Assembly (NCBI RefSeq): GCF_000019085.1
Contig: NC_010321.1
Coordinates: 504,501 to 568,500, forward strand
DNA: 64,000 bases
Source of the DNA: Thermoanaerobacter pseudethanolicus ATCC 33223
GTDB taxonomy: Bacteria > Bacillota > Thermoanaerobacteria > Thermoanaerobacterales > Thermoanaerobacteraceae
Reading direction: 5' to 3'
Shown here: positions 57,994-62,268 of the stretch, piece after piece
Layout of the letters: each line of letters begins with the position of its first letter
Position numbering within the stretch: the first letter of the stretch is position 1
Position numbers and translations under genes: made by a program
The notes under the pieces: generated by a model
What the model saw: only the letters and a program-made list of their open reading frames with translations
What the model was told of the DNA's origin: nothing
Databases searched by the model: none

Positions 57994-60324
57994 ATGAAAG
58001 GGATAATCATGGCGGGTGGAGAAGGAAGTAGACTAAGACCTTTAACAGCCGATATACCTAAGCCTATGGTACCTGTTGCAAATAAACCTGCGATAAAGCA
58101 CATAGTGGAACACTTACACAAATATGGAATCAAAGATTTAGCTGTTACGCTTTTTTACTTGCCTCAAAAGATTAAAAAATATTTAGAAGAAGAATATGGG
58201 GATGAAATAAAGTTTTATATAGAGGATAAGCCGTTAGGGACGGCAGGCAGTGTCAAAAATGCTAGAGACTTTCTAAATGATACTTTTATTGTTATGAGCG
58301 GAGATGTAATTACTGATGTTAATATAAAAGAAGCTTATGAGTTTCACAGAAAGAAAGGGGCAAAAGTTACTCTTATTTTGACAAGAGTAGATGTGCCGTT
58401 GGAATATGGTGTTGTGATTGTGGATGAGGAAGGCAAAATAAAAAAATTTTTAGAGAAACCTTCTTGGGGAGAAGTGTTTAGCGATACAGTAAATACGGGT
58501 ATATACATAATAGAACCAGAAATATTGGAGTTTATACCTCAAGATAAGCCTTTTGATTTTAGTAAAGATTTATTTCCTATGTTGTTGAAAAATGATATTC
58601 CAATGTACGGTTATATTACAGGAGGATATTGGTGTGATATAGGAAATACCAATCAATACATCACTAGTCATTTTGATATTTTAGAAGGAAGAGTAGATTT
58701 AGGATATAAGGATAAGTTACTTAAAAAGGGAAAGGTAATAGGTAAAAATGTTACAATTTCTCCTGAAGCTAAAATCATCCCTCCTGTGATTATAGGAGAC
58801 AATGCAATAATTGAAGCTAACGCTGTTGTAGGACCTAACGTAATAATTGGTAAAAATAACTATATAAAGAAAGGGAGCAGTTTAAAAAATGCTGTATTGT
58901 GGGATGAAATAATTGTAGATAAAAATTGTGAATTAAGGGGTTGTGTAGTTTGCAATAGAGTGAGAATCGGCAATAATGTCCGAATTTTTGAAAACAGTGT
59001 TATAGGGGAGAGTTGTAAAATAAAATCCTTTGCTGAAATAAAGCCAGAGGTAAAAATATGGCCCTATAAAATAATAGATGAAGGCTCTGTTGTCGCAAAA
59101 GATGTAGTGTGGGGGAATGGAAGGAAGCCCTTGACTTTTGGATATAGGGGAATTAAAGGGGTTCTTAATGAGGACATTACTCCTCAAATTGCAGTTGAAA
59201 TTGGAGAAGTTTTTGGCAATATAATTAATAGCAGTGTGTTGGTAGGACACGATGGGGATATTGTATCTCAATTTATAAGCGATTTAATAAGTTTCGGGCT
59301 TGTATCTGGTGGTTGTGAGGTTTTAAAAGCCAATAATACTCTTCTCCCCTCTTTAAGATATGGAATTAAGAAAAATAAGTGTGGAGGAGGAATTTATGTA
59401 GAGGAGGAAGAAGGAAATTTAAGAATTTTGTTTCTTGATAAAGAAGGGTGTGATATCGATAGAAACTTAGAAAAGAAAATAGAAAACAAATTGAGGGTAT
59501 ATGATATTGAACGAGTTGATGGGAAAAATTTAAAATCTATAAGAGAAATTGATATAAACAATGATTATCTTAACTTTCTTTTTAAAAAAAGGACTGCCTA
59601 TAAAAGTTTTAAAATTAAACCTTACGATGAAAAAACAAAACTGCTATTAGAAGCCGTAGGTAAAAATGAGTTTTTTATAACGCAAGAGTCTTATGATGTA
59701 GGGGTGCTTTTTTATAAAAATGGGGAAAAAGTTAAACTCTACGACGAAAAGGGAAGAGAATTTGATGAAGATGAACTTGAGTTTATAAGAATGTTAATTG
59801 CTAAAGAGCAAGGGGCCAAAAATTTTGTACTTCCTTTCGATAGTTCCAAATACTTGACAGAATTTGCGAAGGAATTTGCTATTGAGACTGTAAGCAGCAA
59901 AATTTCCCATAAAGATAGAATGAAAACAATAGTGTCGAAGGAAGGCGTAGAAAAAGATCTACAGATTAATTTAAATTTTGACGGATTTAGTTTTTTACTA
60001 GACCTTTTAGAATATTTACAACATACCTCTCAAAAACTTTCCTCTATAAAAGATAGTTTTCCTTTAAGATATAGAATAACCAAAAGTATAAAATGCGATT
60101 GGAGAGATAAAGGAAAAATAATAAGAATGCTTTTTGAAAAGGCCGATGGAGGGGCAGAATTTTTAGATGGTTTAAAGTTTAATAAAGAAGATTCATGGGT
60201 GTTAGTAGTACCGGATTATGAATTACCTGCTTGTAATATTTATATAGAAGCTCCTACAAAAGAAAGAGCTGAAGAGTTATTTTCAATGTATGAAAAAGAA
60301 ATTAAAAGTATTGTACAAAAGTAA
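57994..60324 (+). CDS. Sugar-phosphate nucleotidyltransferase with degenerate phosphomannomutase-like domain
   Basis: A 776-residue, three-part protein. Residues ~1-230 are a nucleotidyltransferase of the mannose-1-phosphate guanylyltransferase/GlgC type (GIIMAGGEGSRLRPLTADIPKPMVP, VMSGDVITD, EKPSWGEVFSDTVNTGIY, GGYWCDIG). Residues ~240-375 are a left-handed beta helix (IGKNVTISPEAKIIPPVIIGDNAIIEANAVVG pattern). Residues ~385-776 resemble phosphomannomutase, but the catalytic TASHNP loop is replaced by VEEEEGN (~469-475) and no DGDxDR metal loop is visible, so this domain is probably not catalytic. It likely makes a GDP- or other NDP-sugar for the cell surface. GAGGTGG lies before the ATG. 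Confidence 0.87.
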   Translation: MKGIIMAGGEGSRLRPLTADIPKPMVPVANKPAIKHIVEHLHKYGIKDLAVTLFYLPQKIKKYLEEEYGDEIKFYIEDKPLGTAGSVKNARDFLNDTFIVMSGDVITDVNIKEAYEFHRKKGAKVTLILTRVDVPLEYGVVIVDEEGKIKKFLEKPSWGEVFSDTVNTGIYIIEPEILEFIPQDKPFDFSKDLFPMLLKNDIPMYGYITGGYWCDIGNTNQYITSHFDILEGRVDLGYKDKLLKKGKVIGKNVTISPEAKIIPPVIIGDNAIIEANAVVGPNVIIGKNNYIKKGSSLKNAVLWDEIIVDKNCELRGCVVCNRVRIGNNVRIFENSVIGESCKIKSFAEIKPEVKIWPYKIIDEGSVVAKDVVWGNGRKPLTFGYRGIKGVLNEDITPQIAVEIGEVFGNIINSSVLVGHDGDIVSQFISDLISFGLVSGGCEVLKANNTLLPSLRYGIKKNKCGGGIYVEEEEGNLRILFLDKEGCDIDRNLEKKIENKLRVYDIERVDGKNLKSIREIDINNDYLNFLFKKRTAYKSFKIKPYDEKTKLLLEAVGKNEFFITQESYDVGVLFYKNGEKVKLYDEKGREFDEDELEFIRMLIAKEQGAKNFVLPFDSSKYLTEFAKEFAIETVSSKISHKDRMKTIVSKEGVEKDLQINLNFDGFSFLLDLLEYLQHTSQKLSSIKDSFPLRYRITKSIKCDWRDKGKIIRMLFEKADGGAEFLDGLKFNKEDSWVLVVPDYELPACNIYIEAPTKERAEELFSMYEKEIKSIVQK

Positions 60325-60416: not shown

Positions 60417-60440
60417 AGCGGGTTTTACCCCCGTTTTTTT
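60417..60440 (+). terminator. Terminator after the nucleotidyltransferase gene
   Basis: GCGGG / CCCCG stem followed by TTTTTTT. Confidence 0.7.
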
Positions 60441-60488
60441 ATATGGTATAATAAGGGCATGAAAAATTTCTCTTGAAGGTGTTTTATT

Positions 60489-60767
60489 ATGAAAAAAGAG
60501 GGTAAATATATTTCCGCTACAGAGATAAATCAATTTCTTTATTGCCCTTATCAGTGGTATTATATAAAAAAATATGGATTTGAATATATCAATGGTTTGA
60601 GAGAACCAAAAGAGCAAGACTTGCAATTTAGTAACTTTAAGAAAGGGATAGAATATCATGAAAAATATTACAAGGATATTGTGAAAGTGCGATATAAAAA
60701 ATATGCAATTATTTTTGGAATTATAGCTATTTTATTAATAATTGCAATTATGAGGGTTTTAAAATGA
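60489..60767 (+). CDS. Cas4-like nuclease, N-terminal fragment with membrane anchor
   Basis: A 92-residue protein. Residues 7-25 read YISATEINQFLYCPYQWYY, the N-terminal helix and first iron-sulfur Cys (C19) of Cas4/RecB-like PD-(D/E)XK nucleases. A hydrophilic linker with KKGIEYHEKYY (family G-x-x-x-H motif) follows, then a C-terminal membrane helix (~71-91). The nuclease core is not here but in the next gene, which overlaps by 4 bp (ATGA). AAGGTG lies before the ATG. The two products probably assemble in the membrane. Confidence 0.8.
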   Translation: MKKEGKYISATEINQFLYCPYQWYYIKKYGFEYINGLREPKEQDLQFSNFKKGIEYHEKYYKDIVKVRYKKYAIIFGIIAILLIIAIMRVLK

Positions 60768-61324
60768 TTCTCAATATAATTTTTTTATTTTTCACCATAT
60801 ATTTACTTGTTCAGTCAATTATCGAACAAAGGCCTTATTATAAAAAAATGAAAAGAAGCATAGGATTTCGAGGTGGCAAAATAATATACATAGATAAGCC
60901 GCAAGAAGTGAAGAAAAAAGGAGTAATATATGGAAAATTATTAAAATCAGATAAATATGGTTTATCGGGAAAACCAGATTATATTTACCAATTAGGAGAA
61001 GAATTGATACCAATAGAATTAAAAAGCAGTCAAGCAGAGGATACACCTTATTATAAAGATGTTATGCAGCTAGTTGCGTATTTTTTGATAATAGAAGATG
61101 TATACCAAAAAAGGGTAAAAAGAGGGCGAGTAGTTTATAAAAATTCAATGTTTGAAGTGTATAATAGACGATCGCTAAGAAGAGAGCTTTTTAATATATT
61201 AAAGCAAATGAAAAAAATGCAAGAAGGTAATTATTTGCCTGAAGTAAATCCTTCGTATGCTTTATGTAAATTTTGCCCCTGTAAAGAAACTGTTTGCGAA
61301 ATATACAAAAATACTTCCAAATAA
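60764..61324 (+). CDS. Cas4-like nuclease, catalytic fragment with membrane anchor
   Basis: 186 residues. An N-terminal membrane helix (3-20) leads into the PD-(D/E)XK core: GLSGKPDYIYQLGEELIPIE, with D72, E85 and K87 as the catalytic triad, then QLVAYFLI with the Q102-x3-Y106 motif. The C-terminus has a cysteine cluster (C168, C171, C173, C178) matching the last three iron-sulfur ligands of Cas4. With C19 of the upstream gene it would rebuild a complete Cas4-type nuclease interrupted by a two-helix membrane hairpin. No CRISPR array or cas gene is in the window. Exonuclease activity is inferred. Confidence 0.82.
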   Translation: MILNIIFLFFTIYLLVQSIIEQRPYYKKMKRSIGFRGGKIIYIDKPQEVKKKGVIYGKLLKSDKYGLSGKPDYIYQLGEELIPIELKSSQAEDTPYYKDVMQLVAYFLIIEDVYQKRVKRGRVVYKNSMFEVYNRRSLRRELFNILKQMKKMQEGNYLPEVNPSYALCKFCPCKETVCEIYKNTSK

Positions 61325-61395
61325 ATACAGAATATTGCGTTTATATAGAGAAAAAATAAAAAAGAAATATAGAAAAATTGAAGTGAGGTATGGCT

Positions 61396-62268
61396 ATGGT
61401 AAGAAAATTATTCTTTATCTTAATAGGAATTTTTCTGTGCTTTTCGATTGTCTCTTGTGGAATAGCTAAAAAAGACATTACAAAAGCAGAAAGAAATGAA
61501 GCTTTACAAAAGCCTTTAGAGAAACCTAAAGAAAAAGTATCTAATACAGTTAACAAGACGGTTTATACTAACACAGAAAATTTGGACAACACTTTATATG
61601 GTTGGGGAGTAAGAGTGTTGCCAAATCATCAAACTCCAGAAATAACTCCTAAGGCGATGGAGCTTATAAAAAAATACGACGCTATTTTTGTAGGTGACAC
61701 GACAAAAAAGGTAGTTTATTTGACTTTTGATGAAGGATATGAAGCTGGTTATACTCCTAAGATACTAGATATACTCAAAGAAAACAATGTAAAAGCAGCT
61801 TTTTTTGTAACTGGACCTTATGTAAAGGAACATGCTGATTTGGTTAAAAGAATGGTGGAGGAAGGACATATAGTTGGCAATCACACTGTCAATCATCCAA
61901 GTTTGCCTACTTTGTCTGATGAAAAAGTAAAAGAGGAAATAACTAAATTGGGGGATATGTTTAAAGAGCTAACGGGGAAAAAGATGAAATATTTTAGACC
62001 TCCCAAAGGAGAATATAGTGAAAGGACTCTTTATCTTACTAAGTCTTTAGGATACAGGACTGTTTTTTGGAGCCTTGCTATGGCTGATTGGCAGCCACTT
62101 CCTGGAGGTCCAGAAGAAAGCTATAATACTGTTATGAAAAGGCTTCATCCGGGGGCGGTAATACTTCTTCATGCAGTTTCAAAAGACAATGCTTTAGCCC
62201 TTGATAGAATAATTAAGAGTATTAAAGCTGAAGGATATGAATTTAAAACTCTAGACGATATACCATGA
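61396..62268 (+). CDS. pdaA: PdaA-like polysaccharide deacetylase lipoprotein
   Basis: 290 residues. A hydrophobic leader ending SIVSC (lipobox, Cys ~21) makes it a probable lipoprotein. The NodB-type deacetylase domain (~95-285) has TFDEGYEAGYTPKIL (first Asp pair, with E where many have D), HTVNHPSLP (zinc His pair), RPPKGEYS, and LLHAVSKDN. PdaA in B. subtilis deacetylates muramic acid to make the spore-cortex delta-lactam. The start ATG at 61396 is better spaced from GTGAGG than the ATG at 61390. The last 4 bases overlap a small membrane ORF. Confidence 0.88.
   Translation: MVRKLFFILIGIFLCFSIVSCGIAKKDITKAERNEALQKPLEKPKEKVSNTVNKTVYTNTENLDNTLYGWGVRVLPNHQTPEITPKAMELIKKYDAIFVGDTTKKVVYLTFDEGYEAGYTPKILDILKENNVKAAFFVTGPYVKEHADLVKRMVEEGHIVGNHTVNHPSLPTLSDEKVKEEITKLGDMFKELTGKKMKYFRPPKGEYSERTLYLTKSLGYRTVFWSLAMADWQPLPGGPEESYNTVMKRLHPGAVILLHAVSKDNALALDRIIKSIKAEGYEFKTLDDIP

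Follow-up and report, generated by a model that had tools for sequence, protein, structure and literature searches.

A conserved overlapping gene pair of Thermoanaerobacter and its relatives: a very probable two-chain, membrane-anchored solo-Cas4

Can a nuclease of the Cas4 family be made of two separate chains, each anchored in the membrane, or is a Cas4-like gene that is read in two pieces simply a broken one? Known Cas4 nucleases are soluble and consist of one chain, and the question is raised by two overlapping genes at positions 60489-61324 of a 64,000-nucleotide stretch of the Thermoanaerobacter pseudethanolicus ATCC 33223 chromosome, which we refer to as the window. An initial annotation of this DNA had proposed a Cas4-like nuclease split into two membrane-anchored halves with a shared iron-sulfur cluster. 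The evidence set out below makes a two-chain, membrane-anchored solo-Cas4 architecture very probable, and an obligate two-chain, membrane-anchored nuclease of solo-Cas4 type probable.

Gene 1 (60489..60767, + strand, 92 aa) is an open reading frame that holds the N-terminal half of the Cas4 fold and ends in a membrane helix, and gene 2 (60764..61324, +, 186 aa) begins with a membrane helix and continues into the catalytic, Cys-rich part of Cas4. The two share an ATGA start/stop overlap of 4 bp (60764..60767, +), of a type conserved in the family, and their translation would be coupled through it. In gene 1, YISATEINQFLYC contains Cys19 (codon 60543..60545, +), the presumed N-terminal ligand of the Cys cluster; it is followed by G53-x3-H57, whose His57 (60657..60659, +) is the Cas4 active-site His, and then by a hydrophobic helix at about residues 73-91 (60705..60761, +), assigned from hydropathy and charge bias, with a Kyte-Doolittle value of 2.99 as measured on the near-identical gene-1 protein of locus L074. 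In gene 2, a helix at residues 2-20 (60767..60823, +), assigned on the same grounds, precedes the PD-(D/E)XK triad of D72 and E85-x-K87 (codons within 60977..61024, +), Q102-x3-Y106 and the C-terminal Cys cluster C168/C171/C178 (61265..61297, +). The initial annotation had read the same features in the two genes, from the first-Cys helix, the two membrane helices and the overlap to the triad, Q-x3-Y and the Cys cluster, all of them correctly placed, and it had missed His57. Since His57 and Cys19 both lie on gene 1, each chain carries part of the active site and part of the Cys cluster. Upstream of gene 1, in the sister species too, there is a site that resembles an ordinary sigma-A promoter, TTTACC-17-TATAAT with an extended -10 (60424..60452, +); it is a consensus match only, and such matches are no more numerous than in shuffles. 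Further upstream the window encodes a 776-aa protein with a sugar-phosphate nucleotidylyltransferase part and a phosphohexomutase-like part (57994-60324) and a GerAB-like spore germination permease (PF03845; 55803-56894, -).

In profile searches, gene 2 matches TIGR00372 (cas4) with 109 bits (cut-off 65) and PF01930 with 28.8 bits (cut-off 22.7), covers the Cas4 profile from about position 9 onward with the catalytic region included, and is the sole non-CRISPR match to that profile in the T. pseudethanolicus genome. Gene 1 aligns to positions 2-67 only of TIGR00372 (E 0.0019; 18 bits, below cut-off) and to positions 2-27 of PDDEXK_1 (E 0.02), and it matches the PADLOC Cas4 profile with an E value of 2.5e-5; its orthologues from the Bacillus plasmid described below and from Paludisphaera match the same N-terminal part of PDDEXK_1. 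The comparison that the initial annotation had suggested therefore aligns gene 1 with the N-terminal part of Cas4/PDDEXK_1 and gene 2 with the remainder. Read over both chains, the active site of the Cas4 family (TIGR00372/PF01930/COG1468) is complete, with His, Asp, E-x-K and Q-x3-Y, and the family's Cys pattern is present, with one N-terminal residue (C19 of gene 1) and three C-terminal ones (C168/C171/C178 of gene 2). One soluble polypeptide is the usual, although not strictly defining, Cas4 trait; here there are two open reading frames with membrane helices instead.

The arrangement is found well beyond this genome. Gene 2 is present in 21 of the 24 genomes of the window's order, each time with a gene-1 match immediately upstream, and when named genomes were scanned the pair appeared in Thermoanaerobacter, Caldanaerobacter, Thermoanaerobacterium and a Thermoanaerobacteraceae MAG, as well as in a Clostridiales MAG, an uncultured Clostridia MAG and a Defluviitaleaceae MAG. 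In the second clostridial order, to which the last of these belongs, gene 2 occurs in 80/295 genomes, with all matches at E <1e-42 and none weaker down to the 1e-15 cut. Gene 1 lies directly upstream of gene 2 in 66 of the 68 loci inspected; the other two are a fusion, described below, and L163 (4980-5564), where gene 2 retains its helix and no recognisable gene 1 is nearby, which counts against an obligate pair. A tRNA-like sequence lies upstream of gene 2 at L163. Split pairs with both helices are also carried by a Bacillus subtilis plasmid (L176) and by the planctomycete plasmids PALBO2 (L177) and pSINAC03 (L190), and a third planctomycete plasmid locus (L191) holds a degraded copy beside a transposase. 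Searches of the broader phylum beyond the two clostridial orders, with Chloroflexi outside their scope, returned ordinary soluble Cas4 only, and in those other families Cas4 is a single chain with no membrane helix. In a tree built from the catalytic half, one branch (support 66/69, 60% of bootstraps) separates the split, helix-bearing set from the rest, which is compatible with, and does not prove, a single origin of the split.

Conservation extends to the residues on which a nuclease would depend. C19, G53 and H57 are invariant in 71 gene-1 sequences, and D44, G69, P71, D72, E85, K87, Q102, Y106, N134, C168, C171 and C178 in 72 gene-2 sequences, so that all four presumed cluster Cys are invariant in the family; C173 of gene 2 varies. 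Pairwise dN/dS is mostly about 0.06-0.21 for both genes, with one gene-1 value of 0.35 in the comparison with a near-identical sister at very low divergence, and by this measure purifying selection is acting on both. These data bear on the reading of the pair as a broken gene, a once-intact Cas4 that a frameshift cut in two in one lineage. An apparent frameshift or stop does interrupt gene 1 in two draft genomes of the window's order (G004 and G017), as such a reading might lead one to expect, but every relative examined retains the split, the residues are intact and selection is purifying, and this rules out a local frameshift, an assembly error or a broken gene; a frameshift, moreover, would not create two new membrane helices. 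We give this reading next to no chance. The initial annotation had allowed that relatives might prove to be intact single genes without helices, or that close relatives might lack the pair and its triad; instead, the relatives are split and helix-bearing as far as another order, the Bacillus plasmid and Planctomycetota, and within the window's own order the pair is widespread and its triad invariant.

If the two chains act as one protein, a natural fusion might be expected, with two central helices, as the initial annotation had also suggested, and one was found. Locus L172 (G486:C13) is a single 275-aa open reading frame without stops in which the Cys helix, G-x3-H, a membrane helix, a short turn, a second membrane helix, the D/E-x-K/Q-Y motifs and three Cys follow one another in that order, and a YhaM-like reading frame ends just upstream of it. 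Being nested among split members on the tree, L172 is probably a secondary fusion, and no other observation speaks as strongly for the two chains acting as one protein. A fused product could also arise from the split genes by programmed frameshifting. At window positions 60753-60767, GTTTTAAAATGA includes T_TTA_AAA, a slippery-type sequence immediately ahead of the gene-1 stop, at which ribosomes could shift into the gene-2 frame. Most Thermoanaerobacter retain the slippery site, whereas Caldanaerobacter and most Thermoanaerobacterium do not, and the frame of gene 2 relative to gene 1 is -1 in 30 cases, +1 in 30 and 0 in four; these mixed frames argue for two chains, and together with the lack of conservation across the family they led us to reject a programmed frameshift.

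Structure prediction gave a single Cas4 fold in the two pairs modelled. For the pair of locus L084, the single in-frame stop between the genes was read through to give a 300-aa chain for AlphaFold2, and the resulting model has a mean pLDDT of 75.9 and a pTM of 0.68; both models are of such artificially read-through chains, with few and mostly unpaired alignment rows. The best PDB match of the L084 model is the Cas4 domain of 7mi4, a Cas4/Cas1/Cas2 complex (Z 15.0 over 149 residues, 3.3 A), and it spans residues 2-285 and hence both chains; other Cas4, MGME1, AdnA, Exo5 and Dna2 come next. The read-through model of a second pair, L083, has a pLDDT of 72.7 and matches Cas4 (7mi4/7mi5) with Z 14.6. 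In the L084 model, two long helices (74-104 and 110-135) separate the nuclease core from the N-terminal helices; the hairpin follows the G-x3-H helix, where an ordinary Cas4 has a short loop. With respect to topology, the net charge of gene 1 is +3.9 before its helix and +0.8 after it, and that of gene 2 is -0.1 before and +4.3 after, in the same sense in 67/67 cases. This bias predicts that the N-terminus of gene 1 and the catalytic part of gene 2 are inside, and thus that both soluble parts are cytoplasmic. The helix is lost from gene 2 in five loci and from gene 1 in one, and since the two are never both lost, membrane anchoring seems to matter.

These observations are consistent with the following arrangement. 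Chain 1 would contribute the active-site His and, to the Cys (iron-sulfur) staple, its first Cys; chain 2 would give D, E-x-K, Q/Y and the remaining three Cys. The helices, one per chain, would together form a helical hairpin that interrupts an otherwise ordinary Cas4 fold directly behind its G-x3-H helix, positioning the nuclease on the cytoplasmic face of the membrane. We infer a heterodimer whose active site and Cys staple are both composite, and in which an Fe-S cluster would be shared by the two chains. By analogy with Sso0001 (4ic1), a 5'-3' ssDNA exonuclease with an Fe-S cluster (PMC3466216), the pair may act 5'-3' on single-stranded DNA. As to what such an activity would be for, we favour, only tentatively, the trimming or clearing of single-stranded DNA at the membrane (in transformation, conjugation or virus entry), in place of CRISPR spacer acquisition.

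As the initial annotation had noted, no cas genes adjoin the pair in the window, nor do they at the chromosomal loci inspected. The genome's own cas4, with cas1-sized and cas2-sized open reading frames and a 26-unit CRISPR array, lies elsewhere (L273, G000:C1:138000-152000), about 0.36 Mb from the window start, and Cas1 is found in 14/40 genomes with the pair versus 13/40 without it. Given the separate cas4 locus and the equal frequency of Cas1, we rejected a CRISPR link. As in solo-Cas4, the pair is thus outside CRISPR loci, and its genus- and family-wide presence and a conserved chromosomal slot in the second order, between yhaM and rlmD, accord with mostly vertical inheritance.

In the window's order the gene that follows the pair, in the relatives read, is pdaA, encoding a delta-lactam-biosynthetic de-N-acetylase of the spore cortex (61390..62268, +, 65 bp downstream; TIGR02884, above cut-off), and the upstream genes differ between species. 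The pair and pdaA would form an operon, perhaps with linked functions. The nuclease could, on this account, handle DNA specifically during sporulation, for example in the forespore. SpoIVA is indeed commoner with the pair (39/40 genomes) than without it (23/40; Fisher 2e-5), none of the 21 pair-positive genomes in the window's order lacks it, and yunB lies further upstream of the pair in L083 (by Pfam) and L084 (by eye). An independent-pairs test on the YhaM tree, weak either way given few informative pairs and one misplaced row (G635, in a wrong reading frame), found no association with sporulation; the raw SpoIVA signal vanishes there because spore-less genomes are mostly in clades without the pair anyway. 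Most sporulating relatives lack the pair, and the site upstream of gene 1 looks like a sigma-A promoter. We therefore consider a sporulation-specific function distinctly unlikely.

In the second order the usual arrangement is yhaM-gene 1-gene 2-rlmD: the gene next to the pair is yhaM on the upstream side in 56 loci and rlmD on the downstream side in 54, and in the loci read their starts overlap or nearly overlap the pair. Such neighbours are RNA genes, not DNA-transfer genes, and count against a DNA role; they point instead to the turnover of RNA or of mixed nucleic acids at the membrane together with YhaM, a 3'-5' exonuclease, perhaps in an RNA-degrading assembly. Yet yhaM is near-universal in this order (40/40 genomes with the pair versus 37/40 without), and in 15 stretches that lack the pair (L274-L288) yhaM and rlmD are still neighbours in 11, directly adjacent in 10. 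The slot thus exists without the pair, which is therefore a cassette cleanly gained or lost, and YhaM is weakened as a dedicated partner. The neighbours are different in the window's order, and Sso0001 prefers DNA (PMC3466216). An RNA role appears, on balance, quite improbable.

What points to DNA entry is the neighbours on plasmids, and these only. The window-type pair is chromosomal, and divergent split pairs are on Bacillus and planctomycete plasmids. A phage or virus origin was rejected, the phage and viral collections searched with the pair having given no matches. On the Bacillus subtilis plasmid NRS6116_2 (L193, 11333-14414), genes for a YoaA/DinG-like helicase, a 77-aa protein and the split pair overlap one another, possibly as a helicase-nuclease module, and on two planctomycete plasmids (L289 and L290) mobF relaxase and DNA methylase genes lie near the pair; the helicase and the relaxases were counted in favour of a DNA role. 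The same helicase, two genes upstream of the nuclease, would also suit a membrane-bound repair enzyme that, like AddB, AdnA or Dna2, has a helicase (YoaA/DinG type) as its partner in resecting or cleaning DNA ends, with the membrane as docking site, and so would UmuD and Y-family polymerase genes near the pair on PALBO2 and the presence of AdnA, AddAB, Dna2, Exo5 and DinG among the fold neighbours of the models. However, chromosomal copies have no helicase or repair gene near them, and repair enzymes seldom need two membrane anchors, which leaves the repair reading doubtful. The methylase genes, the cassette-like presence or absence at one locus and PADLOC matches to Cas4 and the defence nuclease DruK would suit an anti-phage or anti-plasmid nuclease, that is, an entry role turned to immunity; this we hold to be unlikely, since no defence system was recognised around the chromosomal copies, there is no CRISPR link, and slow, syntenic inheritance is unlike that of defence islands. 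Returning to single-stranded DNA at the membrane, one may speculate, with considerable doubt, that this is an ancient two-subunit nuclease derived from a Cas4 split around an inserted hairpin, which would meet ssDNA as it crosses the membrane in transformation, conjugation or phage entry, and in which the Fe-S cluster common to both chains could turn assembly or redox state into a switch of activity. Thermoanaerobacterium species are naturally competent (PMC11837493).

Were the active site and the four-Cys cluster of a conserved Cas4 each to draw on two membrane-anchored chains, this would be an unusual case of a split enzyme, with the membrane as the site of a Cas4 nuclease. The pair would also offer a concrete candidate function for the bacterial solo-Cas4 catalogued in 2017, in transformable and editable genera (Thermoanaerobacterium). 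There is a practical side as well: gene 2 scores above the CRISPR Cas4 cut-off and may be labelled CRISPR-associated by annotation pipelines, and its partner gene 1, needed to complete the protein, is apt to be annotated as hypothetical.

How does the pair compare with known systems? The AddB, AdnA, Dna2 and Exo5 Fe-S nucleases share the RecB-type nuclease domain that the models of the pair match; to our knowledge none has a membrane hairpin. Unlike the pair, they are mostly large single chains with helicase domains. AddB has a four-Cys staple too (PMC3466216). Sso0001 is likewise a non-CRISPR Cas4 with four Cys and a RecB-type active site, but it is a single soluble chain. CRISPR Cas4 (TIGR00372; 7mi4, 8d3l) agrees with the pair in fold, in catalytic residues and in the 1+3 Cys pattern; the pair differs from it in being split, in its membrane helices and in having no cas1/cas2 or array nearby. 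A split or membrane Cas4 is not described in the literature searched, which leaves most subscription journals outside its scope. The pair also resembles the monophyletic solo-Cas4 that Hudaiberdiev et al. 2017 reported in most Thermoanaerobacterales and many Chloroflexi (PMC5704561), in a main text that mentions no split gene and in which 'membrane' occurs only in a gene-name list. The likeness lies in a Cas4-family nuclease outside CRISPR loci, and the difference in two chains with membrane helices; a solo-Cas4 in Thermoanaerobacterales was thus known already, and what is new here is its conserved split and its membrane helices.
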